Assembly (NCBI RefSeq): GCF_000975115.1
Contig: NZ_BBRE01000003.1
Coordinates: forward strand, 248,001-312,000
Length of the DNA: 64,000 nt
Direction: 5' to 3'
DNA from: Demequina oxidasica
GTDB lineage: Bacteria; Actinomycetota; Actinomycetes; Actinomycetales; Demequinaceae
Made by a program: the position numbers and the translations under genes. Below the pieces are notes generated by a model that ran no database searches, had not been told where the DNA came from, and worked only from the letters and a program-made list of their open reading frames with translations. This document shows, one piece after another, positions 13,504 through 42,495 of this stretch (position 1 is its first letter; the number at the start of each line of letters is the position of its first letter).

Positions 13504-14628
13504 CTAACGGGACGTGGCGTGCTCCCTCGACGGCGGTCGGGCATTCCCATTCCCGCCACCGGTCGTGGTGCCTGGCGTGTCCTCGGAAACCGTACGTGGA
13601 GCGAAGATTCGGTCGCCAATCTTCATGAGGGGTCGCTGGATCAATCGGTCGCGTACAAGTTCGATCGCGGTCGCCGCCGCGTAGACAACCAGCGTGAACC
13701 CGATCGCGTGCCACCACAACGTTGAGGGGTCCGCGGCTGCGCGCTCGGTGCCCACCCAGCTCTCCCAGATCAGCGGTCGCAGGATCGCGTTGTCGTGGAT
13801 GAGGTAGACGCCAAAAGTCGCCGCGGCGATGGTGTTGATAGCAGGCGAGAAGCGCGGCCGCATCTTGGTCACGGCCACCAGTCCACAGATCGCAGACAAC
13901 GCCACGAAGGGGGCGTATTGTGAGCGCATCAACTCAGGATCGAAGCCAAGCCCAGGATTGGTCGCGGCCACGTCGCTGGCAAGCAGCGTCGTCACCGGCA
14001 CCAACGCGGCGAAGGCGGCGGCCGATGCTGCCCACCATTTAGCGGGCCCGCTCACCCGGTACTTGGCGACATACGCGGCCACCAGGTACAGCGCGACAAA
14101 CCACGTCATGCTGTTGGCACCGAACTTGACATCGGGAATCACTGAGAGCACGCTCCACGCAATCAGGACTACTGCGACCAGCGTGAGGTGCTGACGCTGC
14201 GACATAGCCTTCACCAGCAGGTTAATAAAGGGCGAGAAGATCATCAGCATCACGTAGACCGTGACGAACCAATAGAACTCTGTCGCAACAGGGAAGAGCG
14301 CGCGCCACGTGGTCTCGGTGTCGACGCGGTCCGGGATCCAGATCAGCGCGACAATGAGGATCATCCACGAGGTTGACCACACCTGAATCAGGATTGAACG
14401 GAGCCCGCGCCACCGGAAGGTGGACTGCGCCATGAAGTACGCGCCGATCAGCACAAAGGCGTCGACTCCCCACTTGCCCATGGTGGAGTAGCCAGTCAGG
14501 AAGCGCTCGGCGTCGCTGGGATCTGCCGAGCCGAGCACGCCGCCGTGCACTCCGTAGTGGTACGACACGATCGCCAGCATCGCGAGGATGCGGTAAACCT
14601 CGATCACCGAGTTGCGTTGTCTAGCCAT
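13504..14628 (-). CDS. Acyltransferase-3 family membrane protein
   Basis: A 374-residue integral membrane acyltransferase of the OafA/NodX-like family, with about ten hydrophobic helices. The family O-acylates extracytoplasmic sugars, so a wall or surface glycan is the likely acceptor (inference). Seen: RNSVIEVYRILAMLAIVSYH with the conserved active-site histidine region, and VLIGAYFMAQS. I chose ATG 14628 because the helix start matches relatives; ATG 14640 and an upstream in-frame start are possible. It is followed after nine bases by xthA. A GTCAC/GTAAC pair lies about 80 bases upstream. A second family member is at 17167. Confidence 0.88.
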   Translation of the reverse strand: MARQRNSVIEVYRILAMLAIVSYHYGVHGGVLGSADPSDAERFLTGYSTMGKWGVDAFVLIGAYFMAQSTFRWRGLRSILIQVWSTSWMILIVALIWIPDRVDTETTWRALFPVATEFYWFVTVYVMLMIFSPFINLLVKAMSQRQHLTLVAVVLIAWSVLSVIPDVKFGANSMTWFVALYLVAAYVAKYRVSGPAKWWAASAAAFAALVPVTTLLASDVAATNPGLGFDPELMRSQYAPFVALSAICGLVAVTKMRPRFSPAINTIAAATFGVYLIHDNAILRPLIWESWVGTERAAADPSTLWWHAIGFTLVVYAAATAIELVRDRLIQRPLMKIGDRIFAPRTVSEDTPGTTTGGGNGNARPPSREHATSR

Positions 14629-14705
14629 GGCCTGACCCATTCCGACGCCGGGGGCGCCAGGTAGTGGGCGCCACGCTGCGCAAGGATTGGTTGAGCGTCT
14701 CAAAT

Positions 14706-17021: not shown

Positions 17022-17104
17022 ATGGCCCAGGCGGACGACCATCAGTCTTTTCCAGTGCCGCTTCCTCGTGGTAACCCACTGCGCCAGTCGCGACGTGGGC
17101 CAGT
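17022..17104 (-). ncRNA. ZTP (pfl) riboswitch controlling glyA-folD
   Basis: On the minus strand, between glyA and the divergent acyltransferase, I read the hallmarks of the pfl/ZTP aptamer in order: a CGCGACUGGCG segment, a short GUGGGUUACCACG hairpin, GAGGAAGCGGC, a variable linker and the signature CCGCCUGGGC at the 3' end. This class senses ZMP/ZTP, which build up when 10-formyl-THF runs short, and turns on folate genes such as glyA and folD. After the aptamer, a GGCGG/CCGCC hairpin ends about 20 bases before the glyA ATG, so control is probably at translation or by RBS occlusion (inference). Confidence 0.85.
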
Positions 17105-17166
17105 CTAGCAAGGTCATAGGGCGTGGGCGATCGGTGCTGGCGTCGCCCGCTGTTAACCTGCGACGT

Positions 17167-18264
17167 ATGGCGGAAACGAGCATGGCGGCCCCCTCAACGC
17201 CGGACGACAAGCGACCCACCGTCTCGCGCCTCTACGCGCTCGACGGCCTCCGCTTCTTCGCGGCGCTCGCGGTGCTGGCCTTCCACTTCACTGCGCGCTC
17301 CAATAATGCCTGGGGGCAGCCAGTAGAGGCCAAATTTCCCCACCTGTCATTGGTGACCGCGCTGGGTGCGTTTGGGGTCGACATTTTCTTTGTCATCAGC
17401 GGCTTTGTCATTCTGATGACTGCGTGGAACGCGAGCATTCCCAAGTTCGCTGCGAGCCGCGTCTCGCGGCTGTTCCCCGCCTACTGGGCCTGCGTCGCAT
17501 TGAGTTCAATCCTGCTCATCGCGATCTGGCCGGTGAAATCAGTGTCGTTTACCCAATCAGCCACAAACTTCTCCATGGTGCAGGCCGCCTTCGGAATTGG
17601 AGACGTCGACGGCGTGTATTGGACGCTGTGGGCCGAGCTTCGTTTCTACATTCTCATCGGGATCTTCGTCGCGATTGGGATTACTACTCGTAGGGTGCTC
17701 GCCCTGTGCTTCGTCTGGCCGATCCTGAGTGGCATCGCGCTCACCACAAATTCAGCGCTGCTCAGCGAAGTGCTGGTGGCCGAGTGGGCGCCCCTGTTCA
17801 GCGCGGGCATGGCACTCTTCGTCATCAAGCGTGAGCCACGGAACCTCGCGGCTTGGTTGGTGTTCCTCTTCACGACCCTGCTCGCCGCGGGCTATTCGGG
17901 TCAGGTCACCCTTGACCGGATCATCAACGACCTTACGAATCGTGACTTCCCACCGTACGTGGGCTGGGTCGTAGTAGTCGTTTCCATTGGCCTCGTCGCC
18001 CTGCTCACCTTGACGCGGTTCTCACAGTGGGGTGGCAAGAAGTTCCTGGTGCTTGGGGCGTTGACGTACCCGCTCTACTTGCTCCACGAGTACTGGGGCT
18101 GGTGGATCATCAGCCTTCTCGAGGACAAACTTCCTGCCTATGCTGTGCTCGCCCTCGCCACGGCCTTCTGCATCGCTTTGGCGTGGGCTGTCTACTACTT
18201 CGTGGAACGTAACACCGTCAACAGAATGCGGCGCCGCCTCGAGAGGGATCTGGTCAAGCTCTAG
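17167..18264 (+). CDS. Acyltransferase-3 family membrane protein
   Basis: A 365-residue membrane acyltransferase of the OafA-like family with about ten helices. Seen: [20 protein letters not shown] with the conserved RxxAxxxVxxxH histidine element, [13 protein letters not shown], and a C-terminal [12 protein letters not shown] motif. It probably modifies an exported glycan; the acceptor is unknown. I chose ATG 17167, and ATG 17182 is possible. Its stop overlaps the stop of the convergent SpoIID-SLH gene through a shared CTAG. It lies between the riboswitch-controlled glyA and the SLH cluster. Confidence 0.88.
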
Positions 18265-20192
18265 TACTTCGCGGTAAAGGACCAGAGCCACGGCGACTTT
18301 CCGCCCACCAGATTGCTGCGAATACTCTCTGGCCCGCTGATCGTCGCCGTCTTGCCCGATGACGACGTCGCTGTCACGATCCTCGCCGCGGCATCGGAGC
18401 CGCCAGCGGTCCGCGAGGTGACCTTGATGGACACGACGTCGGACAAGCCAAAGACGCTCCGCGCCTTCGCCTGAGTCAACGTGTAGGTCCACGAGTCATT
18501 GGGGTTGGTGGACTTCAAGGACCAGCTGTCGTCGACGGACTTGAGGTACCCCGGCTGTGAGGACCAAATGTCCTCCGAGTTCTCGGTTTGGCCGCCTGAG
18601 GACGAGAAATAATAGGTCCTGGCAATTGAGCTCCCGTACATCAGCACCTTGCCCTTGGACCCCGCAGAGCTGTTCGTCGCGTCGACTGCCTTGACCCATT
18701 CCTTGCCGTAGTACGCATTAGTACCTTCGTTTTCCTTGCGCCACCCTGTGAAGTTCTGGCTGCGAGTGTCGTCATACAGATTGCAGTTGCACGTACTGCT
18801 GTAGGAATTGACAGCATTTAGCGCGTAGCCGCGTGCGGCGATGGCCTGCGCCTGCAGCGCCTCCGCGCCGCCGTTGTATCCCCATGACGAGGGCATCTCC
18901 GCGATGCCGTAGAGATACTCAGTGTTGAGCTTGAGTTGGTTGGCGACGATGATACGCGAATAGGCCGAGCGGCTATCCGGAACTGAGATCAGAAGCTTGC
19001 CGTGGCGGTATTGACCGTTGGCCTGGCTAGTTCCGCCCTCTCTATCCAGGAGTTCCACGTAAGGGTCCTCCGTCGAAGTGGACTGGTAATAGGAGGTGGC
19101 TTCCCACTGTAGGGAAACATCCTTGGTGGCCGTCGCCTTGGTTCCGTTCTCGCGCGTAACGATGACCTTGGTGCCGTCGCGCGTGACCATGAGGTCCTCG
19201 TTGTTCTTGCCTGTCCACGTGGTACTCAGCTCTGCTGCGCCGTCCTTCCAGTTGTAGAAGCGCATGCGCCATTGTCCGTCGTCAGTCGAGTCGCTTCCGG
19301 GAGAACGGACAACGACGTTGACACTGTTGCGGTTGTCGGAGCCGGACCCGAATACCTCGACCCGGATGTCCATGTTCGCGTCGTCAGTCTTGACCGTTGT
19401 ACCGGTGTAGTAGTGCTGCAGAATCTGAGTTTCAGACGAGCCGTCCTTGGCCATACCGTATGCGCCGTATTGCGACATACCGACACCGTGCCCGTACCCG
19501 GCTCCGCTCACCGTAAAGGTGGAGGGAACCTCGATAGGAGGGTTGTCGAGTGGATGTCCGTCGAGTCGGTAGAGAAAGGCCGCGATTGCTTCTCGGGCAG
19601 TGTCCCCCTGTGGCGCAAAAGAGCCGTTGCTATACCCGGTGGTGATCCCGGCCGTGTAGAGCCAGATGATCTCCTTGAAGAATTGTGAAGTGGTCGGCAC
19701 GTCGCTGAACGGCGAGTAGCCCGGCACCGTCACCGACGGCCACCCTTCGTACCGGTAAAGGAACGCAGCAATCGCTTCGCGTGAGATGGATTCGTATGGG
19801 CGAAAGGACCCGTCCGCGTACCCGGTGGTGATCTGCTTCTTCGACACCCACACGATCTCCTTGTAGAACTGATCGGTGGTCTTGACATCACTAAACGGCG
19901 ACGAGCTTGGCATCGACGAGATCTTTGGGCTACCGGCCATGCGATATAGGAACGCAGAAAATGCGCCGCGACTGACCGATTCCTTGGGGCGGAAGGTTCC
20001 ATCGGCATATCCGGTGGTGATCCCCTCGCCGGCGAGCCACGTGATCTGGCTGTAGAACTGGTGGCTCTTGGGTACGTCCGGGAAGCTCGGCGTAGCCGCT
20101 GTAGCAGAAGCCGACAGCGGGACACTCACTAACAGGGCCAGCAAGGTGGCCGATACAGCACTCCACAGTCGTCCACGAGTACGAGGAGTCAT
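18261..20192 (-). CDS. Secreted SpoIID/LytB-domain protein with three SLH repeats
   Basis: A 643-residue exported protein. Signal peptide 1-33 (cut near ATAA-TP), three S-layer-homology repeats at about 36-88, 97-155 and 161-215 (each of the form F-x-DV ... F-x-x-I-x-W ... GITTGY-x-G-x-F-P ... AAFLYR), then a SpoIID/LytB domain with GYGHGVGMSQYGAYGMA near 230-246. SpoIID relatives are peptidoglycan lytic transglycosylases or enhancers of wall hydrolases. The SLH part should hold it at the wall. I chose ATG 20192, preceded by AAGGTGG. It is divergent from the CAP-SLH gene, with a 257-base shared promoter region. Typical SLH TRAE is replaced here by (S/T)REA. Confidence 0.9.
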   Translation of the reverse strand: MTPRTRGRLWSAVSATLLALLVSVPLSASATAATPSFPDVPKSHQFYSQITWLAGEGITTGYADGTFRPKESVSRGAFSAFLYRMAGSPKISSMPSSSPFSDVKTTDQFYKEIVWVSKKQITTGYADGSFRPYESISREAIAAFLYRYEGWPSVTVPGYSPFSDVPTTSQFFKEIIWLYTAGITTGYSNGSFAPQGDTAREAIAAFLYRLDGHPLDNPPIEVPSTFTVSGAGYGHGVGMSQYGAYGMAKDGSSETQILQHYYTGTTVKTDDANMDIRVEVFGSGSDNRNSVNVVVRSPGSDSTDDGQWRMRFYNWKDGAAELSTTWTGKNNEDLMVTRDGTKVIVTRENGTKATATKDVSLQWEATSYYQSTSTEDPYVELLDREGGTSQANGQYRHGKLLISVPDSRSAYSRIIVANQLKLNTEYLYGIAEMPSSWGYNGGAEALQAQAIAARGYALNAVNSYSSTCNCNLYDDTRSQNFTGWRKENEGTNAYYGKEWVKAVDATNSSAGSKGKVLMYGSSIARTYYFSSSGGQTENSEDIWSSQPGYLKSVDDSWSLKSTNPNDSWTYTLTQAKARSVFGLSDVVSIKVTSRTAGGSDAAARIVTATSSSGKTATISGPESIRSNLVGGKSPWLWSFTAKY

Positions 20193-20245
20193 CGCTACAT
20201 CCACCTTCGGATCGTCTAACAATCAATGCCTAACGGAGTGACCAG

Positions 20246-20261
20246 TGTGACACATGTGACA
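20246..20261. promoter_or_regulatory. TGTGACA direct repeat in the divergent SLH promoter region
   Basis: TGTGACA occurs at 20246-20252 and 20255-20261, a nine-base period, between two divergent wall-protein genes. It could be a site for a wall-stress regulator such as an MtrA-like factor. This is speculative. Otherwise the 20193-20449 gap shows no gene. Confidence 0.25.
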
Positions 20262-20449
20262 ACGTAGTCAAGGGGCTTGAGACCTTCGAAGGGACGCACT
20301 CTACGTCGCTCGAGGTAACCCTGGAGGTACGGGGCGCATGAGGAATAGGTCACACACGCTTGAAGTGGCCCTGGGGTGCTCGAACAATGGGGCACTAAGT
20401 ACCAACGACAATTCGGACACTGCTTGGGCGAAACCTGTACGGAGGAAAA

Positions 20450-21493
20450 GTGGCACACAAAAAGAGCGACCGCGTGCGAATAGCGGGCTTGGTGCTGGTG
20501 GCCACCGTGGCAGGAGCATTGGCCATGCCCGGTGCCGCGCAGGCAGCCTCAAGTTCAACCCAGGTTGGCTCGGACTACATCCTCGACGCGACGAATAGCT
20601 ACCGGGGCAGCAACGGCCGCGGTGACCTCACACGCGACGGCAGCATCGACTACGTCGCGCAGCGCTGGGCGCAGAAGATGCTCGCAAGCGATACCCTCGC
20701 ACACAACCCCAGCTACGGTGACCAAATGCCTCAGCAAGGACTAGGCGCCTGGGGAGAGAATGTGGCCTACGCATGTGGGTACGGCGGCGTGAAGGCAAAC
20801 TCGGCGACCATCATGAGTAGTTGGAAGAAGTCAGATGGTCACCGGAAGAATATGCTGAACGGCTCCTACACTCACATCGGCATCGGTTTCGCGTATGACG
20901 GCCGCTCCGACTGTGCGTTTGCCGTACAGGACTTCGGCAAGTACAGCAGTACCTTCACGGATGTGCCCCGTAGCCACCAGTTTTCCTTTGAGATCGAGTG
21001 GCTGGTGGATCGGGAGATCACGACCGGCTATTCAAACGGTCACTTTCAGCCACAGAGTTCTGTCACGCGTGAGGCATTCGCAGCATTCCTCTACCGAATC
21101 GAGGGCGCCCCCAGTTACTCGCCGCCATCCAAGAGCCCGTTCAGGGATGTCTCGCCCGGCGACAAGTTCTATAAAGAGATCACCTGGTTGGCCGACGAGG
21201 GCATCACTACTGGATACGCGGACGGTAGTTTCAAACCGGATGAGCACATCTCACGACAGGCAATCGCGGCATTCCTCTACCGTGCCGCTGGCAAGGTCGC
21301 GACCACTGATCCCACTTCGGCACCGTTCCGGGACGTCGGCCGCAGCGACCAATTCGCCACTGAAATTCAGTGGCTTGACCGCAGCGGTATCACGACCGGC
21401 TTCTCCGACGGCACCTTCCGTCCATACGACGACGTCTCACGCGTGGCCACCGCGGCATTCCTCTACCGTGGTCGAACGATTATCGGACGGTAG
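20450..21493 (+). CDS. Secreted CAP-domain protein with three SLH repeats
   Basis: A 347-residue exported protein. Signal peptide about 1-32 (ends GAAQA-AS), CAP/SCP domain about 37-165 with GENVAYACGYG and DGHRKNMLNGSYTHIGIGFAYD, then three SLH repeats at about 167-220, 227-280 and 286-345. Bacterial CAP proteins are found at cell surfaces; their chemistry is mostly unknown. GTG 20450 is chosen because GGAGG lies four bases upstream and the signal peptide starts there. The domain order is the reverse of the divergent SpoIID protein, where SLH comes first. It is first of three tandem SLH genes. Confidence 0.92.
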   Translation: MAHKKSDRVRIAGLVLVATVAGALAMPGAAQAASSSTQVGSDYILDATNSYRGSNGRGDLTRDGSIDYVAQRWAQKMLASDTLAHNPSYGDQMPQQGLGAWGENVAYACGYGGVKANSATIMSSWKKSDGHRKNMLNGSYTHIGIGFAYDGRSDCAFAVQDFGKYSSTFTDVPRSHQFSFEIEWLVDREITTGYSNGHFQPQSSVTREAFAAFLYRIEGAPSYSPPSKSPFRDVSPGDKFYKEITWLADEGITTGYADGSFKPDEHISRQAIAAFLYRAAGKVATTDPTSAPFRDVGRSDQFATEIQWLDRSGITTGFSDGTFRPYDDVSRVATAAFLYRGRTIIGR

Positions 21494-21531
21494 ATAGCGG
21501 CCCGCATCGCACAATAAGACTGGGGAAGATC

Positions 21532-22368
21532 ATGACTGTGTCATCGTCACGAGTTCGCTTTCAGCCACCACGTTTGGCTCGTGCCCTCACCTGGGCCCTG
21601 GCGCTGGCGACGATCGCCGTGGCCCTGAGTCCATCGCTCGCGCACGCGAAATCGGAGTTTAACGACGTCGATCAGTCGTCCAAGTTCTACGCCGAGATCA
21701 CTTGGCTCGCAGATCAGGGCATCTCCACCGGCTACTCCGACGGAACCTTCCTCCCCTACGACGCAATCACTCGTGACGCCATGGCCGCATTCATGTATCG
21801 CCTCGCGGACAAGCCAGCCTTTGATCCGCTAAAGCGCTCCCCGTTCACGGATATCACCACGCGTTCCAAATTCTTCAAGGAGATCAACTGGTTGTCGTCG
21901 ACCGGAGTCACTACGGGGTACGCGGACGGCGGCTATGGTCCCTACAAGTCGGTGACTCGCGATGCGATGGCAGCATTCATGTATCGCCTCGCAGGCAAGC
22001 CATCCTTTGATCCACCTGCCCGTTCACCGTTCGTGGATGTCGCCCCCACCTCCAAGTTCTACAAGGAGATCACGTGGCTCGCGAGCACCGGCATTAGTAC
22101 CGGCTGGTCCGACAACACGTACCGCCCGTCACTGGCGATTGCTCGCGATGCAATGGCTGCCTTCATGTACCGCTTTGATCGCGAGGTCGGCGTAGCAGGT
22201 TCATGGGAACCGTCAAACCCGGGCGACAGCAAGAACTGCAGCGACTTCTCACATTGGCGCGATGCGCAAGAGTGGTACGAGCGCTATTACCCGTACCACG
22301 GAGACATCGGTGGTCTAGACGGAGATGGCGACGGCATCGTCTGTGTTTCCCTACCTGGGCACCCTTAA
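21532..22368 (+). CDS. Secreted SLH protein with C-terminal excalibur calcium-binding domain
   Basis: A 278-residue exported protein. Signal peptide about 1-36 (ends LAHA-KS), three SLH repeats at about 39-92, 98-152 and 158-215 (each with SKF-(Y/F)-x-EI-x-W), then an excalibur domain at about 228-278 with KNCSDFSHWRDAQEWY and the calcium loop DGDGDGIVC. Excalibur domains are EF-hand-like and occur on secreted bacterial proteins. The repeats use TRDAMAAFMYR instead of REAFAAFLYR, so they have drifted from the neighbours. It starts 38 bases after the CAP-SLH gene and is probably co-transcribed. Confidence 0.9.
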   Translation: MTVSSSRVRFQPPRLARALTWALALATIAVALSPSLAHAKSEFNDVDQSSKFYAEITWLADQGISTGYSDGTFLPYDAITRDAMAAFMYRLADKPAFDPLKRSPFTDITTRSKFFKEINWLSSTGVTTGYADGGYGPYKSVTRDAMAAFMYRLAGKPSFDPPARSPFVDVAPTSKFYKEITWLASTGISTGWSDNTYRPSLAIARDAMAAFMYRFDREVGVAGSWEPSNPGDSKNCSDFSHWRDAQEWYERYYPYHGDIGGLDGDGDGIVCVSLPGHP

Positions 22369-22390
22369 GTTCCTCGCCGCTGGCACTGCC

Positions 22391-22426
22391 AACGCGCGCA
22401 ACACGCGCAACACGCGCAACGCGCGC
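22391..22426. repeat. Four tandem 9-bp units
   Basis: Units AACGCGCGC, AACACGCGC, AACACGCGC and AACGCGCGC follow one another just after the excalibur-SLH gene. The rest of the 340-base gap to 22709 holds no gene I can support; it probably carries the promoter of the next SLH gene. Confidence 0.8.
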
Positions 22427-22709
22427 TAGGGCGGTAGCCATCACCTAAGGGGGCCGCGCACTAGTTTTCAGCGCGCCCTCCACGTGTGCCTAAACTCCGC
22501 GACGGGTGCGCCATTGAACTGCCCCCTGCCGTGAATCCGTCCATTTTGTCGCGCTTGTCCGGTTATGTGGACTACCTACAGTGCAACCGTTAGCGAAATG
22601 AGTGACGTTAACATTGACCCAAGGGATAGACCCACATTATTTGTTGCTTCCCTCTGATAGCGTTCTGTCAGCATTGCCCCAAAGTGGGGCGATGGAATTG
22701 AAGGGAATC

Positions 22710-23873
22710 ATGAGCAATATCAACCTGTCGCTGAGGACTAAGCGAGTGCACACCGTCGTCGCGCTCGCCACAGTCTTCGCACTCGCCATCATCGCTGCTC
22801 TCGGAAGTGCGCCGTCAGCCTCTGCCGCAACGTCAGACGCCCAGTTCAAGGACGTACCGCTCGACGCAAAGTTCTACACGGAAATCGCATGGCTCGCGGA
22901 CCAGCAGGTCACCACCGGCTACTCAGATGGTGGGTTCCACCCCTCACAGTCCGTCACTCGCGAAGCATTCGCGGCGTTCCTGTACCGCCTCGCGGGCAAG
23001 CCTTCCGTGTCACTTCCGTCCCGTTCGCCGTTCAAGGACGTCAGCAAGTCGGATCAGTTCTACAAGGAAATCGTGTGGCTGTCGAAGGAGGGCATCTCCA
23101 CCGGTTACTCCAATGGCACCTTCAAGCCCGGTGACAAGATCACCCGTGAGGCGATCGCCGCATTCCTCTACCGCTTCAACGGAACGCCTTCGTTCAAGGC
23201 CCCGAGCAAGTCCCCCTTCAAGGACATGAAGACCAGCTCGAAGTTCTACAAGGAGGTGACCTGGCTCGCCAAGAGCGGCATGACCACCGGCTACTCCGAT
23301 GGCACCTTCCGCCCCAAGATCAACGTATCGCGCGAGGCAATCGCAGCGTTCCTGTACCGCGGCGACACCATCCTCGACCGCGACGGCACCTACAAGGTGG
23401 GCTCCGACATCAAGGCAGGCACCTACACCGCGGTGACGGCGGGCGATAAGTGGGGTTTTGACTACTGCACCTACCAGCGCCGAAGCACGAGTGGTACGGA
23501 ATTCGACGGGATCCTCGGTATCGATGGAGTCACCCACGGTCGCATCATCGTCACGATTCTCCCCACCGACAAGTACTTCAAGATCTCGGGTTGCTCAGGT
23601 TTGACGTCACTGCGCAAAATTTCACCTGATGCGACATCCATGGGTGACGGAATGCACGCCGTTGGATATCACATGAAGGCCGGAACATACGAGGCGCCCG
23701 GAGCAAAGGGCTCCGACCTCTGCTATTGGTCCAAGACGTCGGCGTTCACCGCCGAGTACCGCACCATCATCGACAACGAGGCCATCGAGGGCAAGCCCGC
23801 ACGGGTGAAGGTCTCCGCTGGACAGGGCTTTGAGTCCTACCAGTGCGGCACCTGGAAGCGTGTGGGCAACTAG
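22710..23873 (+). CDS. Secreted SLH protein with duplicated C-terminal domain
   Basis: A 387-residue exported protein. Signal peptide about 1-38 (ends PSASA-AT), three SLH repeats at about 43-95, 102-155 and 161-217, then two copies of a domain seen in other actinobacterial surface proteins, about 225-297 and 300-385: each has G-x-(Y/H)-x-V/A-G-x-x-(I/M)-KAGTY followed by a (D/L)-x-CY/CT element and a late Cys. Four cysteines could form disulfides. Its function is unknown. I chose ATG 22710 behind GAAGGG; ATG 22692 is possible. A strong terminator follows at 23890, ending the SLH run. Confidence 0.88.
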   Translation: MSNINLSLRTKRVHTVVALATVFALAIIAALGSAPSASAATSDAQFKDVPLDAKFYTEIAWLADQQVTTGYSDGGFHPSQSVTREAFAAFLYRLAGKPSVSLPSRSPFKDVSKSDQFYKEIVWLSKEGISTGYSNGTFKPGDKITREAIAAFLYRFNGTPSFKAPSKSPFKDMKTSSKFYKEVTWLAKSGMTTGYSDGTFRPKINVSREAIAAFLYRGDTILDRDGTYKVGSDIKAGTYTAVTAGDKWGFDYCTYQRRSTSGTEFDGILGIDGVTHGRIIVTILPTDKYFKISGCSGLTSLRKISPDATSMGDGMHAVGYHMKAGTYEAPGAKGSDLCYWSKTSAFTAEYRTIIDNEAIEGKPARVKVSAGQGFESYQCGTWKRVGN

Positions 23874-23889
23874 CCAACCGCTATGAGAA

Positions 23890-23932
23890 GAGGGGTGTCC
23901 GCGCGAAAGCGCGGGCGCCCCTCCTTCTTTTT
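23890..23932 (+). terminator. Rho-independent terminator after the SLH genes
   Basis: A 15-bp GC-rich stem with a GAAA loop (arms 23890-23904 and 23909-23923, two mismatches) is followed by CTTCTTTTT. It is a classic intrinsic terminator, 16 bases after the stop codon, in the gap before the convergent membrane-protein gene. Confidence 0.93.
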
Positions 23933-23973
23933 GCGTGCCGTCGAAGCCGACCGACAAGAGTCAAGAACGCAGC

Positions 23974-24822
23974 TCACTTGCCAGGCCCGCGTGTGGTTTG
24001 CGGCGGCGGCGCGTCGTCGTGAGTGGCACGGCGCAGATTCTTATTCACAGCATCGTCGATGGTATTAGGCAAGCTGATGCCGCGGTCACCACCTATGGCA
24101 TCGCGGAAGCGATCCCATCGCTGCTGGTACTGCTCCGAGAACCGGCTGTTCGCACGGGCCAACTTACGTTCTCCATAGAAACGACGGGCCCAGAAGGAGG
24201 TCGGCTTGGCAAGCCGAATCGCGCCCACGATGCCGATAAAGGGCACCAGGAAGCCGACGAGCCCAAAGAGCAGCTTGCCCTTGAGGAGGGTAATGATCAC
24301 GTACGTGACGTGAATAATAAGACCCGCGACGAATACCCATCTGGACTCGTCCGCAGCCTTGCCCAGATCCCCTGGTGACACCTGAATGAGCAAAGCAGCC
24401 GCTAGGACCCCCGCCACTAGGATCGCATCAATGGATTTACGCCCCTCGTTGCTCCAGTAGACGTCGTCCAGGTGTAGCCATAGCGCGAACTCATCGAGCG
24501 CGAGCGCCGCACCCGCACCAAACAGGGCCGCAAGGACCTCTGCCCAGGGATGCTCGGGCGCGTACCGAAACTGCAACGTCCCGGTCACTAAGACGAGCAG
24601 GATTCCCCACACTTGGTGGTGGATGTGCACGCCGCCAATGTGGATATCGGAAAGCAACCCACCTTTTTCATCCGTAGCCTTGTCTTCCGCCGGCCTATTC
24701 TGATCACCACGAATCTTGCGAGTAATCGCGCGCGTGACAGCAAACGTGACAATGAAACCGATCAGCAGCCACAGCGCGGGTGCTCGCCCGGTATCGAGGA
24801 TGTTGTCCGTGTACCAGTTCAT
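23974..24822 (-). CDS. Conserved actinobacterial integral membrane protein
   Basis: A 282-residue membrane protein with about six hydrophobic segments and a charged C-terminal tail of about 70 residues. Conserved-looking stretches are IGGVHIHHQVWGILL (two adjacent His), LDEFALWLHLDDVYW and EGRKSIDA; the His and Asp cluster could bind metal, but no function is known to me. It lies 27 bases downstream of the GNAT gene on the same strand and may share its transcript. It converges with the last SLH gene across a strong terminator. Confidence 0.8.
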   Translation of the reverse strand: MNWYTDNILDTGRAPALWLLIGFIVTFAVTRAITRKIRGDQNRPAEDKATDEKGGLLSDIHIGGVHIHHQVWGILLVLVTGTLQFRYAPEHPWAEVLAALFGAGAALALDEFALWLHLDDVYWSNEGRKSIDAILVAGVLAAALLIQVSPGDLGKAADESRWVFVAGLIIHVTYVIITLLKGKLLFGLVGFLVPFIGIVGAIRLAKPTSFWARRFYGERKLARANSRFSEQYQQRWDRFRDAIGGDRGISLPNTIDDAVNKNLRRATHDDAPPPQTTRGPGK

Positions 24823-25555: not shown

Positions 25556-26770
25556 ATGCTTAGCACACTCCGTAGACAAGCCGGCCGCACCATTCGCCGC
25601 CTCGGCCTCCTGCCCGGCGGCATCCCCGATGGCCTCGGCGAGGACGCAAAACTCGGTGACTACGTCATCGAATCCGGCGCAGTGGTGTTCTTCCCGGACA
25701 CAGTTGAGAACCTCTACCAAATCCGCCAGTGGTACGGCGCTCTGCAGGAACTTGACGGCGAGATGGGCGTGACCATCGTCACGCAAGACAGCCGCACGGC
25801 GCGAGCCATTCGCAGCGAGATCGACCTTCCCGTGCTCATCGTGGCCCTCAATCGCACCTACTCCGCGCTCATCCGACGCTCGCGGGCGCGCATCGCGATC
25901 TACGTGGGACATTCGAACAACAACGCGGTGGGGTTACGTTCCACCCACGTCGCGCACATCTTTCTGGCACACGGCGACAGTGACAAGTCGGTGTCCGTGT
26001 CCAATCAAGTCAAGGGCTTTGACTTCGCCTTTGTGGCAGGCCAGGCCGCGGTGGATCGCTATGCTTCCTCGGTCCTGTTCCTCGACGCCGAGTCGCACCT
26101 ACGCATCGTGGGTCGTCCTCAGCTGCCGGAGCCATCTGCACGTGAAGTCGCTGCCGGCGCCACCGTCCTGTACGCGCCCACCTGGGAGGGGTCGCAAGAC
26201 GTCAACGCGTATTCATCTGTAAAGTCCCACGGCATGGCACTCGTACAGTCGCTAGCGGCTGATCCTGACCTCAGCATCGTCTACCGCCCCCACCCACGCA
26301 CTGGCGCCTCTGACAAGTCCTTCCGCGAAGCCGATATTGCGATCCGCGCTTACATGGAAACACTCGGAGAGCGCGGGCGCGTCGATTCCAGCAGGGACCC
26401 AGGCGTGGCTTTTGAGTCCGCAGATGTCTTGATCTCCGACATCTCCGCGATGTGCGTCGACTGGCTCTCACAGCGCAGGCCGCTCCTCATCACCGTCCCC
26501 GAGGAACGCGAGGCTGTACCGACATCGCCTTCCAGATTAGTTCGGGTATGTCCGCGCGTGACGGTGGAGGACGCCCCGAGTGCCGCGGCGCTCGTCCGCG
26601 GCGCTATCGCCGACGCGTCGACCCCGGAGGTCCTCGACCAGATGGCACAGTATTATTTAGACGGCAAGACGGGTCCCGATGCTATGGCCGCATTCGTTCG
26701 CGAGTGCAAGAACATCGCTCGCCTTCGCGACGAACAGGCCAAAGGACCCGAGGGAACAGACGATGAGTGA
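25556..26770 (+). CDS. CDP-glycerol:glycerophosphate transferase family (TagB/TagF-like)
   Basis: A 404-residue cytosolic-face transferase of the family that adds or polymerises glycerol- or ribitol-phosphate from CDP-alcohols in wall polymer synthesis. Seen: IFLAHGDSDKS (the HGxxxK-like element), LYAPTWEG (YAPTWR type), YRPHPRTG and DVLISDISAMCVDWLSQRRP, the C-terminal motif of TagF enzymes. It heads a run of four plus-strand genes with overlapping ends (CDP-alcohol transferase, GT2, TagD). It is shorter than the TagF polymerases of Bacillus, so it could be a primase or single-unit transferase. The exact polymer is inference. Confidence 0.85.
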   Translation: MLSTLRRQAGRTIRRLGLLPGGIPDGLGEDAKLGDYVIESGAVVFFPDTVENLYQIRQWYGALQELDGEMGVTIVTQDSRTARAIRSEIDLPVLIVALNRTYSALIRRSRARIAIYVGHSNNNAVGLRSTHVAHIFLAHGDSDKSVSVSNQVKGFDFAFVAGQAAVDRYASSVLFLDAESHLRIVGRPQLPEPSAREVAAGATVLYAPTWEGSQDVNAYSSVKSHGMALVQSLAADPDLSIVYRPHPRTGASDKSFREADIAIRAYMETLGERGRVDSSRDPGVAFESADVLISDISAMCVDWLSQRRPLLITVPEEREAVPTSPSRLVRVCPRVTVEDAPSAAALVRGAIADASTPEVLDQMAQYYLDGKTGPDAMAAFVRECKNIARLRDEQAKGPEGTDDE

Positions 26771-28483: not shown

Positions 28484-28888
28484 ATGAGCACCAAGGTCAT
28501 CACTTTCGGCACCTATGACGTCTTCCATGTTGGCCACGTCAACATCCTGACGCGCGCTCACGACCTGGGCGATCACCTCACCGTGGGTGTCTCAACCGAC
28601 GCCATGAATTTCTCCAAGAAGGGCCGGTATCCGGTCTACCGCCAGGAGCACCGACTCGAGATTGTCGCGAGCATGGCTTGCGTGGACGAGGTCTTCATCG
28701 AGGAGTCGCTCGACCTCAAGCGTCAGTACCTGATCGATCACAAGGCAGACATCCTGGTGATGGGTAACGACTGGGAGGGACGCTTCGATGAGTTCAAGGA
28801 CATTTGCGAGGTCAAGTACCTTCCGCGTACGGACGACATCTCGACTACTGACATCATTCAGGACATTCGTAGTCGCATTGACGACTGA
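28484..28888 (+). CDS. tagD: Glycerol-3-phosphate cytidylyltransferase
   Basis: A 134-residue TagD-type nucleotidyltransferase that makes CDP-glycerol from CTP and glycerol 3-phosphate, the donor for TagB/TagF enzymes. Seen: TFGTYDVFHVGHVNIL with the HxGH CTP site, GVSTDAMNFSKKGR and the C-terminal ISTTDIIQ motif. The length matches B. subtilis TagD. AAGGAG precedes the ATG by five bases. It supplies the donor for the cluster starting at 25556 and possibly for the GT2-TagF fusion at 40228. Confidence 0.93.
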   Translation: MSTKVITFGTYDVFHVGHVNILTRAHDLGDHLTVGVSTDAMNFSKKGRYPVYRQEHRLEIVASMACVDEVFIEESLDLKRQYLIDHKADILVMGNDWEGRFDEFKDICEVKYLPRTDDISTTDIIQDIRSRIDD

Positions 28889-38676: not shown

Positions 38677-40200
38677 ATGAACGTCGTTGTTGTCGGTGAC
38701 ATTGGTTGGCAGTTTCTCTATCACCTAGGCGATGAAGCCATGACTGAGGCTGCCATTGACATGCTGCGCGATCGCCAGGTCGATCAGATCACGCTAGTAG
38801 CCGGCCAACCGGCCGTGTCGGAAGCGTTCTACGGGCTCCCCTGCGTGACGCGGGTTGGATTCAAATCCGGCTGGAGTCGAAGGGGAAATGCAGGGCACCT
38901 TCGCAAGGTAGCGACGCAGCTCGCGGACGCTACCTACGATGAGAAGTCGATCTTTGCAGCCATCCGCGATTGCGATGTTGTGCTCATCGCCGGTGGCGGG
39001 AACATGAACTCGCGGGACTATCACCTGCTGTATGAGCGCGTCGCCGCCAAGCGTATCGCTGAACACTTTGGGAAGCCGCTCTATGTCTCCAGTCAGACAG
39101 TCGGCCCGATGCTTCTTCCCGAGGATCGCGACCTCGTTGTCGAGATTGCTGATTATGCGAATGCCTTCGGATGCAGAGAGGCCACGACCACGGCGCTCAT
39201 GCGGCGCCACGTGGCACGTCCCGATCGAGTTCATCACACGCTTGACGACGCCTCCGTCCTGACCTCGGACAGCAAGGCGCGAGAGGTCGTACAGGAGCTC
39301 GCGGGTGATAAGCGATTCGTGGTGGCCTCGTTCACTAATCACCACGGTTCGATCTGGGCGAACCGCGACTCGTACTACTCCGACATTGCAGCAGCTTGCG
39401 CCGCAATAGCCTCGGACAACGACGTCGAGGTGCTCCTCGCTCCTCACGCTGGCTCGCTAGACCCCGCCCAAACATCGCGGGACCAGGAGAGCAATGAGAT
39501 CATCGCCAAACTTGCTGACTCGCCGAGGGTTCGGGCAACCCGCATGATCACGGCACGCGAGGACGTCGCCTTGATTGAGGCCGCTGTGCTGTCGCTGTCG
39601 ACCCGCTACCACCCCACCATTTTCGGACCGTCTGCCGCGACGCCCACCATTGGGATTGCGCCTTCGTACTACTCGTCAATTCGCATGCGCGGTTCGATGC
39701 GCAACGTGGGCCTCGAGCGTTTCGTGTTGCCCACCAGTTCGATGCATCTTTTGCGCGATGCTGCTCGGGAAGCGATCGGCAAGGACGAATCGCTAGCGCG
39801 GTTCCTGGAGTCCGCTCGCGAGCGCGCGCTTGGATTCCAGCATGCCTGGTGGGACGGGCTCACGGACGCAATGCGCACTGGTAGCGACGTGAATTTCACT
39901 GCAACACTGGAGGCGGAAGCGTATGTTCCGGCCGGGAGCTGGTCAGCGGAGAACGAGATCATCATTCCGGTGTTTGACAACTACGCAAAGACTGTCGATC
40001 TGAGCAAGGAACTGGCGGGCTTCCTCAAGGATGCGCGAGAGAGTAAGAAGCAACTCACAGCCTCCGTGGAAGCGACCCAAGAGAAGCTGACGAAGGCCGA
40101 GTCCGACCTCGAGCAATCCCGGGCGACCGTCAGCCGTTACAAGAATCGCAAGGTCGTCAGGCTTGCCGACAAACTCGGACGGATGTTGCCTGGCCGGTAG
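38677..40200 (+). CDS. Polysaccharide pyruvyltransferase family protein
   Basis: A 507-residue protein with a polysaccharide pyruvyltransferase (CsaB/PssM-like) domain at about 1-350: VVGDIGWQFLYHLGDEAM at the start, DVVLIAGGGNMNSRD, and LSTRYHPTIFGPSAATPTIG near 305-325 with the conserved HxxI/F-GPSA-type segment. A predicted coiled coil (about 440-500, LTKAESDLEQSRATVSRYK) follows and is unusual in CsaB. Such enzymes put pyruvate ketals on wall glycans, the ligands of SLH domains. Four SLH genes lie 15-20 kb away. The link is inference. It converges with the GT2-TagF gene. Confidence 0.85.
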   Translation: MNVVVVGDIGWQFLYHLGDEAMTEAAIDMLRDRQVDQITLVAGQPAVSEAFYGLPCVTRVGFKSGWSRRGNAGHLRKVATQLADATYDEKSIFAAIRDCDVVLIAGGGNMNSRDYHLLYERVAAKRIAEHFGKPLYVSSQTVGPMLLPEDRDLVVEIADYANAFGCREATTTALMRRHVARPDRVHHTLDDASVLTSDSKAREVVQELAGDKRFVVASFTNHHGSIWANRDSYYSDIAAACAAIASDNDVEVLLAPHAGSLDPAQTSRDQESNEIIAKLADSPRVRATRMITAREDVALIEAAVLSLSTRYHPTIFGPSAATPTIGIAPSYYSSIRMRGSMRNVGLERFVLPTSSMHLLRDAAREAIGKDESLARFLESARERALGFQHAWWDGLTDAMRTGSDVNFTATLEAEAYVPAGSWSAENEIIIPVFDNYAKTVDLSKELAGFLKDARESKKQLTASVEATQEKLTKAESDLEQSRATVSRYKNRKVVRLADKLGRMLPGR

Positions 40201-40206
40201 TGGATG

Positions 40207-40236
40207 GTCGCTTGACTTCGCGTGAAGTTAAGCGAC
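40207..40236. terminator. Bidirectional hairpin between convergent polymer genes
   Basis: GTCGCTT-G-ACTTC and GAAGT-T-AAGCGAC form a 13-bp stem with a GCGT loop in the 27-base gap, overlapping the minus-gene stop. It is probably a shared transcript end. Confidence 0.6.
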
Positions 40237-42435
40237 TCGGTCCATCTGCCACGTGGCGAGCGAAGGTACATTACTTCGCTCGATCTTTCTCGCGGGTGCG
40301 CCCTCAATCACGCGCGCCACAATATCCCTCGCGGCGTGGCCAGTGTCGAACTCACAGAACAACTCCTGGAAACGGTTGAGGCGTGCTGCGCTTTCCGGGC
40401 TCTCGTACTCACGTGAACTCAACGCGGCAGCCAACTCACTCGCGGTGCGTGCCACGATCCCGGGGGAATCCACCGTGATGTCGAAGTAGGTCCCTCGTTG
40501 GATCCTGTACTGTTCCCAGTCATATGCGAACACAATGATGGGCCTGTTGAGGTTGGCGAAGTCAAACATCGCACTTGAGTAATCGGTGATCATGACGTCA
40601 GCTGCGAGGTACAAGTCCTCTACCGCATCGTAGGAAGTGACATCCAACATGGAGGCATGCAGCTCTGCGCCACGCTCCCGTCCCGCCAGATAGTGGCCAC
40701 GCATGAGGAGAACGTCGCCGTCGTCTAGGGCTTCAGCGATGAGGTCAAAGTCTGCTGCCGGGATAAGATCTCTGTCCCGTTCACGGAACGTGGGCACATA
40801 GAGAATGACACGGGCATCGGAACCGACTCCGACGCGCTCTCTTGCGGCCTGCACGGCCGAATCGTCCGCGTTGACCAGGACGTCATTGCGAGGGTAGCCA
40901 TACTCGAGTGTTTCGCAGTTGACGGGGTAACTGTGCTTCCAAACCTCCGCGCTGTAGGAGTTTGACACCAGCGAGTAGTCCCAGTTTTGGCACCTCCCCA
41001 GCAGTCCGTTTACCCAGCGGCGGTCTTGTCCTACTTCCTCAACTCCCATTCGCTTGAGCGGGGTGCCGTGGTGAAGTTGGGTGAACACCTGTCGAGGACG
41101 CTTCTTCCAGAAGCCCGGAAGGTTGACGTCGAGGAAGAAGTACTTGGCCGTCGCGAGTACTCGGTAATATTTGTGGCTGCCCTTGACCACGTACTCCCAA
41201 CCAGAGGGCACTCCCGGGGTATCTGCGGCGCCGACGCTCCACACAATTCTCATACCGGGATGGGTCCGACGAATCTCGCGATCAATAGCCAAGCAATTCA
41301 GCCGAGGCGCACGGCCCCACAGATTCTCCATCACGACCATGCCGCTGTTGACTCGGGCAAAACGTCGGTAGAAGTCGTAGGAGCGGCGGTTATGGTAGTT
41401 CGCTCGCAAAAACTTCACCACTGATCTCGCGCCGTTGCGCAGAGCGGTCTTGGTGGCGATCAGCGCCTCTGACGCCCGCATGCGCAAGGCGAAGGGCTCA
41501 TACGAGAGCGACCAGAAACGCCGCATCAACTTCCACTTATCGCCCTGAGTCGGCAATACGTAGCTGGCGGGAGCATGCTGACGAACGCTGCGGCGCGCAT
41601 TGGTGTAAAAATCGCGACGCATGTTGGCCGGAATTCGATGACGCTTTGTCGTCGCGAGAGTGATGATGTTGCGTAGGGCACGCGTAAACACCTCCACGCG
41701 CATCTTCTCCTCGATGCCGAGTCCATCCATGACGTCCATCAACCTGTCGAACTGGTCGACAATCTGAACGTGCCTAGCATCGGTGCTGCGGAGAATGGAA
41801 CCAGACCAGCGTTGGCGATAGCGATAAATGGGTTCGTCGAGTCCAACAATCGAGTTCGCCGCCGCAAGGATCGGATAGGACCACGGGATGTCCTCGTAGT
41901 ACCCCACTGGAAATTCGACGCCAAGCTCATCAAGGAACTCTCGGCGGTAAACCTTATTCCAGGCAACGTTGAGGACGTCGAGGATCGAAGTGTGGTCAGC
42001 AGCAACAAAGGGCCCCTCGAACTGCAACGGCGAGCGCTGAACTCCCTCGACCGCGGATCCATTCGGGTACAGCCGCTCGTATCCGAACACCACAACATCC
42101 GCTGCGTACTCATTGAGCGTAAGACGAAGACGCTCAAGCGCGCCTTCCTTGAGGTAGTCGTCGCCGTCAAGGAACACAATGTATTCGCCCTGCGCCTCAC
42201 GCATCCCCAGGTTGCGAGCACGGCCCAGGCCCACGTTGCTGTCGGGACGCTCGACGCGTACCGATGCGTACTCCGCTGCTAGTTGGTCCGCCAGAACTGA
42301 TGTTCCATCCGTGGAACGGTCGTCGACAACAATCACTTCCACAGACTCATACTGTGCGACAGACATGACTGCTTGGCGTAGGTAACCCTGAACGTTGTAC
42401 GCGGGAATGACTACTGAGAACTGAGGGGCGTGCAT
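40228..42435 (-). CDS. Fusion of GT2 glycosyltransferase and CDP-glycerol glycerophosphotransferase
   Basis: A 735-residue two-domain enzyme. N-terminal GT2 domain (about 1-240): FSVVIPAYNVQGYL, VIVVDDRSTDG, GEYIVFLDGDDYL and YYEDIPWSYPI. C-terminal TagF-like domain (about 340-710): QLHHGTPLKRMG, GYPRNDVL, LYVPTFRERD, MRGHYL and the MITDYSSAMFDFA signature. This pairing suits a polymer with alternating sugar and glycerol- (or other alditol-) phosphate units. I chose ATG 42435, behind GGAAGAAG. CDP-glycerol could come from TagD at 28484. It faces the pyruvyltransferase-family gene, so both may build one wall polymer. Confidence 0.92.
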   Translation of the reverse strand: MHAPQFSVVIPAYNVQGYLRQAVMSVAQYESVEVIVVDDRSTDGTSVLADQLAAEYASVRVERPDSNVGLGRARNLGMREAQGEYIVFLDGDDYLKEGALERLRLTLNEYAADVVVFGYERLYPNGSAVEGVQRSPLQFEGPFVAADHTSILDVLNVAWNKVYRREFLDELGVEFPVGYYEDIPWSYPILAAANSIVGLDEPIYRYRQRWSGSILRSTDARHVQIVDQFDRLMDVMDGLGIEEKMRVEVFTRALRNIITLATTKRHRIPANMRRDFYTNARRSVRQHAPASYVLPTQGDKWKLMRRFWSLSYEPFALRMRASEALIATKTALRNGARSVVKFLRANYHNRRSYDFYRRFARVNSGMVVMENLWGRAPRLNCLAIDREIRRTHPGMRIVWSVGAADTPGVPSGWEYVVKGSHKYYRVLATAKYFFLDVNLPGFWKKRPRQVFTQLHHGTPLKRMGVEEVGQDRRWVNGLLGRCQNWDYSLVSNSYSAEVWKHSYPVNCETLEYGYPRNDVLVNADDSAVQAARERVGVGSDARVILYVPTFRERDRDLIPAADFDLIAEALDDGDVLLMRGHYLAGRERGAELHASMLDVTSYDAVEDLYLAADVMITDYSSAMFDFANLNRPIIVFAYDWEQYRIQRGTYFDITVDSPGIVARTASELAAALSSREYESPESAARLNRFQELFCEFDTGHAARDIVARVIEGAPARKIERSNVPSLATWQMDRVA

Positions 42436-42495
42436 CGACACTTCTTCCGTTTCATTGTCGCAATCGCTCAACAACCGTGGCGAGCTAGGAGAAAA

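Follow-up and report, generated by a model that had tools for sequence, protein, structure and literature searches.

Four adjoining genes are found at positions 18261–23873 of the window (the whole 64,000 nucleotide stretch of Demequina oxidasica DNA that was analysed), and each encodes a protein consisting of three SLH repeats joined to a different partner. The PF00395 scores in gene order are 112.7, 115.3, 98.5 and 120.4 bits (cut-off 20.8), with three stretches in each of the four proteins, and all four N-termini display apparent Sec signal peptides as judged by eye. The SpoIID gene is on the minus strand and is divergent from the other three, which are on the plus strand; thus the cassette is not a single operon.

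The minus strand gene (18261..20222) encodes an SLH-SLH-SLH-SpoIID/LytB protein of 653 aa, or a shorter one if translation starts, as is likely, at the later ATG at 20192. Its SLH triplet is situated at 19563..20087, as placed by PF00395 and alignment, and its SpoIID/LytB domain at 18351..18941 (residues 428–624); the scores pass the cut-offs of both PF08486 (48.6 bits) and TIGR02669 (156.7 bits), the latter defining the domain limits. SpoIID domains are of a type that cuts the glycan strands of peptidoglycan. Nine further genomes of the genus also have relatives that combine SLH and SpoIID. The CAP-SLH-SLH-SLH protein (347 aa, 20450..21493) has GGAGGA upstream of a GTG start, a CAP domain at 20582..20935 (residues 45–162; PF00188, 58.3 bits, cut-off passed) and a triplet at 20945..21469 (PF00395 and alignment). 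The following gene (21532..22368), read from Pfam matches as SLH-SLH-SLH-excalibur-like, encodes 278 aa with a triplet at 21655..22176 (PF00395 and alignment) and an excalibur-like motif at 22231..22344 (residues 234–271) that, with 20.1 bits on PF05901, stays below the Pfam threshold of 22. The last gene (22602..23873, the ATG at 22710 being the more likely start) carries a triplet at 22836..23360, for which an AlphaFold2 model extending to 23381 was made, and a C-terminal part with two Rv1352/Rv1906c stretches (23385..23870; NF053833, 117.3 bits, cut-off 25). A pattern match to a terminator-like hairpin is found 3′ of the cassette at 23890..23923 on the plus strand.

An earlier note on this DNA had described four adjacent SLH-triplet proteins with different partners, and small errors aside this description holds. 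The SpoIID and CAP partners are as it named them, its duplicated domain consists of the two Rv1352/Rv1906c stretches, and its excalibur assignment is sub-threshold. It had the SLH part trailing in one protein, which is correct for the CAP protein only, and leading in one, where in fact it leads in three. Elsewhere in the genome two further proteins carry SLH triplets by a custom profile and PF00395 by Pfam, thus the four proteins of the cassette are not the full set of the genome.

Fold and conserved residues of the SLH triplets

One of the four triplets, that of the Rv1352/Rv1906c protein, was modelled with AlphaFold2 (pLDDT 96.2, pTM 0.90). The model matches 3pyw with Z 23.5 and 6bt4, the Bacillus anthracis Sap protein with a pyruvylated ligand, with Z 22.3; over the structures of Sap (3PYW, 6BT4) and Paenibacillus alvei SpaA (6CWx, 7SVx) the values range from 18.1 to 23.5, and the three-repeat trimer fold is common to all. 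The modelled triplet is thus confidently predicted to be an SLH trimer, the fold on which the earlier note had made its proposal depend.

In the solved complexes of Sap and SpaA, Arg43 and Gly29 grip the pyruvate and Trp13 stacks on the sugar. Gly29 and Arg43 are both present in all 12 window repeats and in all 219 repeats of a 73-triplet alignment (69 of the 104 locus triplets listed plus the four window triplets), and Arg at 43 and Ala at 45 are common to the 12 window repeats; conservation of Gly29, Arg43 and Ala45 is partly selected, since the search patterns span positions 28–36 and 43–52 in at least one repeat per locus. A smaller alignment consisted of 18 of 37 locus triplets and the four window triplets. 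Positions 13 and 14 lie outside both search patterns. Trp13 is found in none of the 12 window repeats and in none of the 219, at a position that aligns gap-free to the Trp of Sap, and in the window repeats a Phe14 adjoins this position.

The TRAE motif of Sap and SpaA is absent from all 12 window repeats, which show (S/T/A)RxA instead. The earlier note had read (S/T)R(E/D)A throughout; seven of the 12 repeats have it, and the other five are SRGA, AREA, SRQA, SRVA and ARDA. It had also taken the motif as a sign that the ligand mode may be altered, and as a mark of another ligand by itself the motif was rejected, being usual in actinobacteria. Passages of PMC6081394 describe TVEE and TRAQ variants in SpaA itself and a last Glu of TRAE that makes no contact with the ligand. 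The argument from TRAE is therefore weak, as the motif is usual in the phylum, the repeats retain the critical Arg, and the Glu that ends TRAE is off the ligand. A separate reason to suspect a changed sugar comes from the absence of Trp13 in all 12 window repeats.

The repeats of 18 Demequina cassette proteins group by their position in the triplet, with 8 label changes as compared with 25.8 in shuffles, which indicates that the triplet mostly spread as one unit. The partner domains differ from genome to genome, and SLH proteins encoded elsewhere, in relatives or in the same genome, bear amidase, NlpC/P60, GH25 and VanY domains. These findings agree with the mix-and-match arrangement proposed earlier, and it is plausible that all four proteins are held to one shared ligand. 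SLH relatives are also found in 26 viral contigs.

Pyruvyltransferase genes and their association with SLH genes

A polysaccharide pyruvyltransferase gene (PF04230, 91 bits, cut-off 25.3) is located at 38677..40200 on the plus strand, 15 kb from the SLH cassette, and is a candidate maker of the SLH ligand. It is one of three PF04230 genes in the genome. On the minus strand next to it, a gene at 40228..42474 encodes a fusion of GT2 and a CDP-glycerol glycerophosphotransferase (PF04464) of the teichoic acid type; in the five related loci taken, the pyruvyltransferase gene adjoins a convergent GT2-TagF-type gene each time. The wall polymer neighbourhood also includes, both on the plus strand, a CDP-glycerol glycerophosphotransferase-like gene at 25556..26770 (PF04464, 33.7 bits) and a cytidylyltransferase-like gene at 28484..28888 (PF01467), for which "TagD-like" is our own label. 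A teichoic acid as the general ligand was considered. Among 34 SLH-bearing relatives only 10 have PF04464, thus the polymer may be something other than a teichoic acid.

PF04230 is a broad family. On the CsaB equivalog model TIGR03609 the window enzyme gives 44.8 bits against a cut-off of 213.1, and the eleven PF04230 enzymes scanned give 24–77 bits, far under it. All five scanned enzymes that adjoin SLH genes elsewhere are fused to GT2, a fusion the window enzyme does not have.

Genomes with at least three SLH matches usually carry PF04230. In a sample of 347 genomes of the order, it is found in 59 of the 62 with at least three SLH matches as compared with 222 of 347 overall, and outside the family of Demequina in 45 of 45. 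In a phylum sample of 396 genomes the counts are 41/45 with at least three matches (four genomes thus having no PF04230), 7/40 with one or two and 127/396 overall. Within the family the association is weaker, PF04230 being present in 22 of 27 genomes with at least three matches and in 10 of the 20 that remain (p = 0.03; the Fisher tests on co-occurrence ignore phylogeny). Genome lists and sites were transcribed by hand into scripts, and the totals of 76, 222, 85 and 127 match the tallies. The five family genomes with at least three matches and no PF04230 are G006, G015, G022, G023 and G028. A profile built from 16 pyruvyltransferases, searched against every one of the seven SLH-bearing genomes of the family that have no PF04230, gave only fragments of 37–86 residues (best E-value = 0.003) and nothing in two of the seven. 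One of the five, G022 (D. sediminis), shows repeats of the Phe14 type with no pyruvyltransferase found by this profile, which breaks, and so weakens, a clean rule that Phe14 means that a pyruvyltransferase is present.

The two gene families are also physically linked. Among the matches listed, 19 of 34 genomes have PF04230 within 10 kb of an SLH site, against a simulated mean of 0.5, counting same-contig pairs only and simulating one linear genome without contigs; these 34 are the genomes with an SLH site listed out of 49 non-family genomes having both families, the other 15 being outside the sample. An NlpC/P60 control is near SLH sites in 3 of the 34, and two of the three are SLH-NlpC/P60 fusions. 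In six genomes of Brachybacterium the SLH gene is followed in operon-like fashion by the pyruvyltransferase gene, with a spacing of 31–80 bp or an overlap of 25 bp. Of the 78 named SLH loci, only 6 have a pyruvyltransferase within the retrieved flanks. Among the papers listed by our searches, none reports an SLH–pyruvyltransferase link in Actinobacteria in its title or the first part of its abstract.

A proposed docking role for the cassette and competing readings

The gene anatomy, the trimer fold of the one model, the conserved residues and the co-occurrence and linkage of SLH and pyruvyltransferase genes lead us to favor, with a probability of about two in three, a set of wall tools that attach to a pyruvylated glycopolymer with a sugar unlike that of Bacillus. 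The four proteins would be secreted, and each would dock non-covalently on the wall through its one SLH trimer, bringing along its own SpoIID domain, CAP domain, excalibur-like motif or pair of Rv1352/Rv1906c domains. What the dock recognizes is most likely a pyruvate ketal on the polymer, made by a PF04230 enzyme of the same genome, perhaps that at 38677..40200, which has a teichoic-acid-type transferase gene as its partner. For gripping the pyruvate, the triplets would use Arg43 and Gly29, the residues that do so in Bacillus and Paenibacillus. As Trp13 is replaced and Phe14 adjoins it, the sugar that bears the pyruvate is probably not ManNAc, or is held otherwise, and Phe14 may take part in the binding.

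It is unlikely that the triplets instead bind a non-pyruvylated ligand, such as peptidoglycan or another anionic polymer, with the gene link reflecting shared surface-polymer regions. The missing Trp13 and the five family genomes without PF04230 would fit such a ligand, and passages of PMC5817068 mention direct binding of SLH to peptidoglycan, which they term controversial. However, the co-occurrence of 45/45 in the order outside the family and 41/45 in the phylum, the direct adjacency of SLH and pyruvyltransferase genes, the count of 3 of 34 in the NlpC/P60 control and the retention of Arg43 and Gly29 all argue against it. Doubtful too is a division of Demequina SLH domains into two readers, a Phe14 type for the pyruvylated glycan and a type without Phe14, mostly with Q/N at 45, that would have a different ligand. 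In G006, G015 and G028, none of which has PF04230, the triplets read have no Phe14 and mostly show RxQ, and PF04230 is present in every one of the nine genomes whose cassette is of the Phe14/REA type; the repeats compared are a subset for each genome, taken mostly at its best SLH site. Against two readers are G022, as described above, and six genomes that have the enzyme and whose read triplets are without Phe14. CAP is joined to both SLH types. That the cassette is a strict S-layer system, its proteins building a lattice, is highly improbable: SLH domains typically serve to anchor S-layer proteins (described in parts of PMC6081394), but the proteins here have 278–653 aa, with SLH joined to enzyme-like or small domains and no large unassigned body.

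Docking on a pyruvylated polymer would resemble the CsaB-dependent display of Bacillus and Paenibacillus, where SLH proteins likewise co-occur with, and are often near, a PF04230 enzyme; a review makes the general point that pyruvate and a CsaB orthologue are found in bacteria rich in SLH proteins. The differences are that the actinobacterial enzymes scanned score far below the CsaB cut-off and, where they adjoin SLH genes, carry GT2, and that the triplets of Sap and SpaA are borne on an S-layer body whereas those of the window, from the Actinomycetota, are borne on wall-enzyme-like domains. The CWB2 triplets of Clostridioides difficile, as passages of PMC5817068 and PMC6081394 present them, similarly give a set of surface proteins a shared three-part anchor, but of another domain family and with another ligand.

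Pyruvylated wall polymers are known in Nocardiopsis, Brevibacterium and Promicromonospora, with no function known according to the parts of PMC6801904 that treat them. These genera belong to the same phylum as Demequina, in which the window enzyme is near teichoic-type genes. We consider it an even chance that an actinobacterial SLH reader, with Phe14 in place of Trp13 and Gly29 and Arg43 kept, docks peptidoglycan-remodelling enzymes on such a polymer, the pyruvyltransferase gene often adjoining and there fused to GT. If true, the orphan pyruvylated wall polymers of the phylum would thereby gain a function. The co-occurrence and adjacency of the genes turn that function into a concrete, testable role, in which the pyruvylated polymer would be the docking site for SLH-borne wall enzymes.

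Cassette genes and their partner domains

Gene and domain scans of the 2.62 Mb Demequina oxidasica genome show four adjacent genes with SLH (PF00395) triplets at 18261–23873. The triplets are joined to SpoIID (18261–20222, minus strand), CAP (20450–21493, plus), an excalibur-like motif (21532–22368, plus) and Rv1352/Rv1906c domains (22602–23873, plus). Apart from corrections, this is the set described in the earlier note, whose idea of a cassette is sound and the finding real. The first two genes are divergent, with 227 bp between them, and genes two to four share one direction and end in a terminator-like hairpin, a consensus match (two seen vs 4.2 in shuffles). The 18000–24100 stretch yielded no promoter matching the sigma-70 consensus. 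The G+C is 0.59–0.60 at 18001–24000 and 0.61–0.69 in the rest of the window (2-kb steps), except for 0.58 at 40001–42000, in a GT2-TagF gene. Two acyltransferase-3 membrane proteins (13504–14703 and 17068–18264) lie on either side of folD/glyA-like genes adjoining the cassette, an arrangement also present in genome G003; these proteins could be candidates for acylating wall polymers.

The SpoIID-SLH protein occurs in nine other genomes of the genus. Seven carry it together with a divergent CAP-SLH gene, and in three of these (G025, G029, G041) a purU-like gene lies between the two. Among the loci compared, SLH-excalibur is found elsewhere in the genus in G003 and G011, and SLH-Rv1352 in G029. 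The cassette thus has a SpoIID/CAP core, to which the excalibur and Rv1352 proteins are variable additions. At locus L088 of D. litorisediminis (G011), many genes, including SpoIID-SLH, are broken over frames, likely by sequencing error since the assembly is rated 50% complete.

The D. oxidasica genome also codes an SLH-SH3-VanY (carboxypeptidase domain) protein with an SLH triplet (L013:610-2427) and, at L015, a protein in which SLH is combined with 3-keto-disaccharide hydrolase and carbohydrate-binding domains. In other genomes, seven scanned SLH proteins that adjoin a pyruvyltransferase (PF04230) gene carry Amidase_2 (three), NlpC/P60 (two), GH25 (one) or GmrSD_C plus excalibur (one). SLH-PG_binding-NlpC/P60 proteins adjoin such a gene in two Brachybacterium genomes (L235:5473-7197, L240:7081-8859). 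SLH relatives are also coded by 26 IMG/VR contigs (L201–L226), with best segments 26–54% identical.

Fold and repeat history of the triplets

Structure prediction gives a trimer fold like that of Sap (B. anthracis) and SpaA (P. alvei). One of the four cassette triplets, that of the fourth protein, was modelled from a 73-row alignment of actinobacterial triplets in which it is the top row (mean pLDDT 96.2, pTM 0.90). Foldseek ranks 1–15 are all Sap and SpaA SLH structures. The VIA-align Z is 23.5 for 3pyw and 22.3 for 6bt4 (both Sap) and 18.1–19.6 for SpaA, followed by an S-layer cytochrome at 9.1, with all further rows at 2.8 or less.

The repeat phylogeny, proposed in the earlier note, shows grouping by triplet position: 8 changes vs a shuffled mean of 25.8 (54 repeats from 18 Demequina proteins, 53 columns, many forks left open). 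The triplet was thus copied mainly as one unit. The exception is the excalibur protein of the window, in which repeats one and three pair together.

Pyruvyltransferase genes and SLH genes

In the order sample (347 genomes; 76 with an SLH match, 222 with PF04230), 59 of 62 genomes with at least three SLH matches have PF04230 (Fisher p 5e-10, phylogeny ignored). Without Demequinaceae the count is 45/45 (p 1e-10, likewise). The phylum sample, which overlaps in G000 (D. oxidasica) and G047 among SLH-bearing genomes plus some without SLH, gives 41/45 (p 2e-18), vs 7/40 with one or two matches and 127/396 overall. Within Demequinaceae (47 genomes) the association is weaker, 22/27 vs 10/20 of the others; no PF04230 was found in five family genomes with at least three SLH matches.

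Of the 34 genomes for which an SLH site is listed, 19 have PF04230 within 10 kb of it and 12 within 2.5 kb (random placement means 0.5 and 0.14). The control family NlpC/P60 lies within 10 kb of PF04230 in 3/34, two being SLH fusions. In six Brachybacterium genomes (G089, G056, G300, G169, G073, G262) the SLH gene is directly upstream of PF04230 on the same strand, with a 31–80 bp gap or 25 bp overlap, taking starts as first possible codons. However, of the 78 named SLH loci, only 6 contain PF04230 in the fetched flanks. A GT2 glycosyltransferase domain is fused to all five SLH-neighbouring pyruvyltransferases scanned (L232, L233, L234, L235, L244). D. oxidasica has three PF04230 genes; the one in the window (38677–40200) adjoins a convergent GT2-TagF-type fusion gene, a layout seen in 5/5 related loci taken.

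The ligand site

According to PMC6081394, the SpaA ligand site consists of Trp13, Gly29 and Arg43, each from a different repeat, and the final Glu of TRAE makes no ligand contact. The earlier argument for a different ligand mode, from the change in TRAE, was based on the wrong residue. All 12 window repeats keep Gly29 and Arg43; unlike SpaA they lack Trp13, having K or Q there, followed by Phe14 (12/12). In a gap-free alignment the Sap Trp falls opposite K.

The survey of 73 triplets (219 repeats; four triplets from the window and 69 from loci in Demequina, Arthrobacter, Rothia, Kocuria, Brachybacterium and other genera) shows no Trp13. Position 14 is Phe in 187, His in 22 and Tyr in 8. Gly29 and Arg43 are each present in 219/219 and Ala45 in 211/219, all three being partly selected by the search patterns. 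Other actinobacterial triplets deviate; some of those in family f4 (L067, L246) retain W, have letters resembling TRAE, or show neither.

Nine Demequina genomes (G006, G008, G010, G015, G019, G020, G028, G035, G036), three of which lack PF04230, carry a second SLH subtype (e.g. L025, L034, L044) that lacks Phe14 and in most cases has RRQ, RAQ or RRN for REA. CAP domains are joined to this subtype too (L024, L025, L026), so that one tool appears on two dock types.

With Gly29 and Arg43 kept and Trp13 gone, the surveyed triplets thus retain the half of the site that concerns pyruvate and have an altered sugar half. The predicted ligand is, with a probability of roughly two in three, a pyruvylated wall glycopolymer in which the sugar, or the way of holding it, is unlike that in Bacillus.
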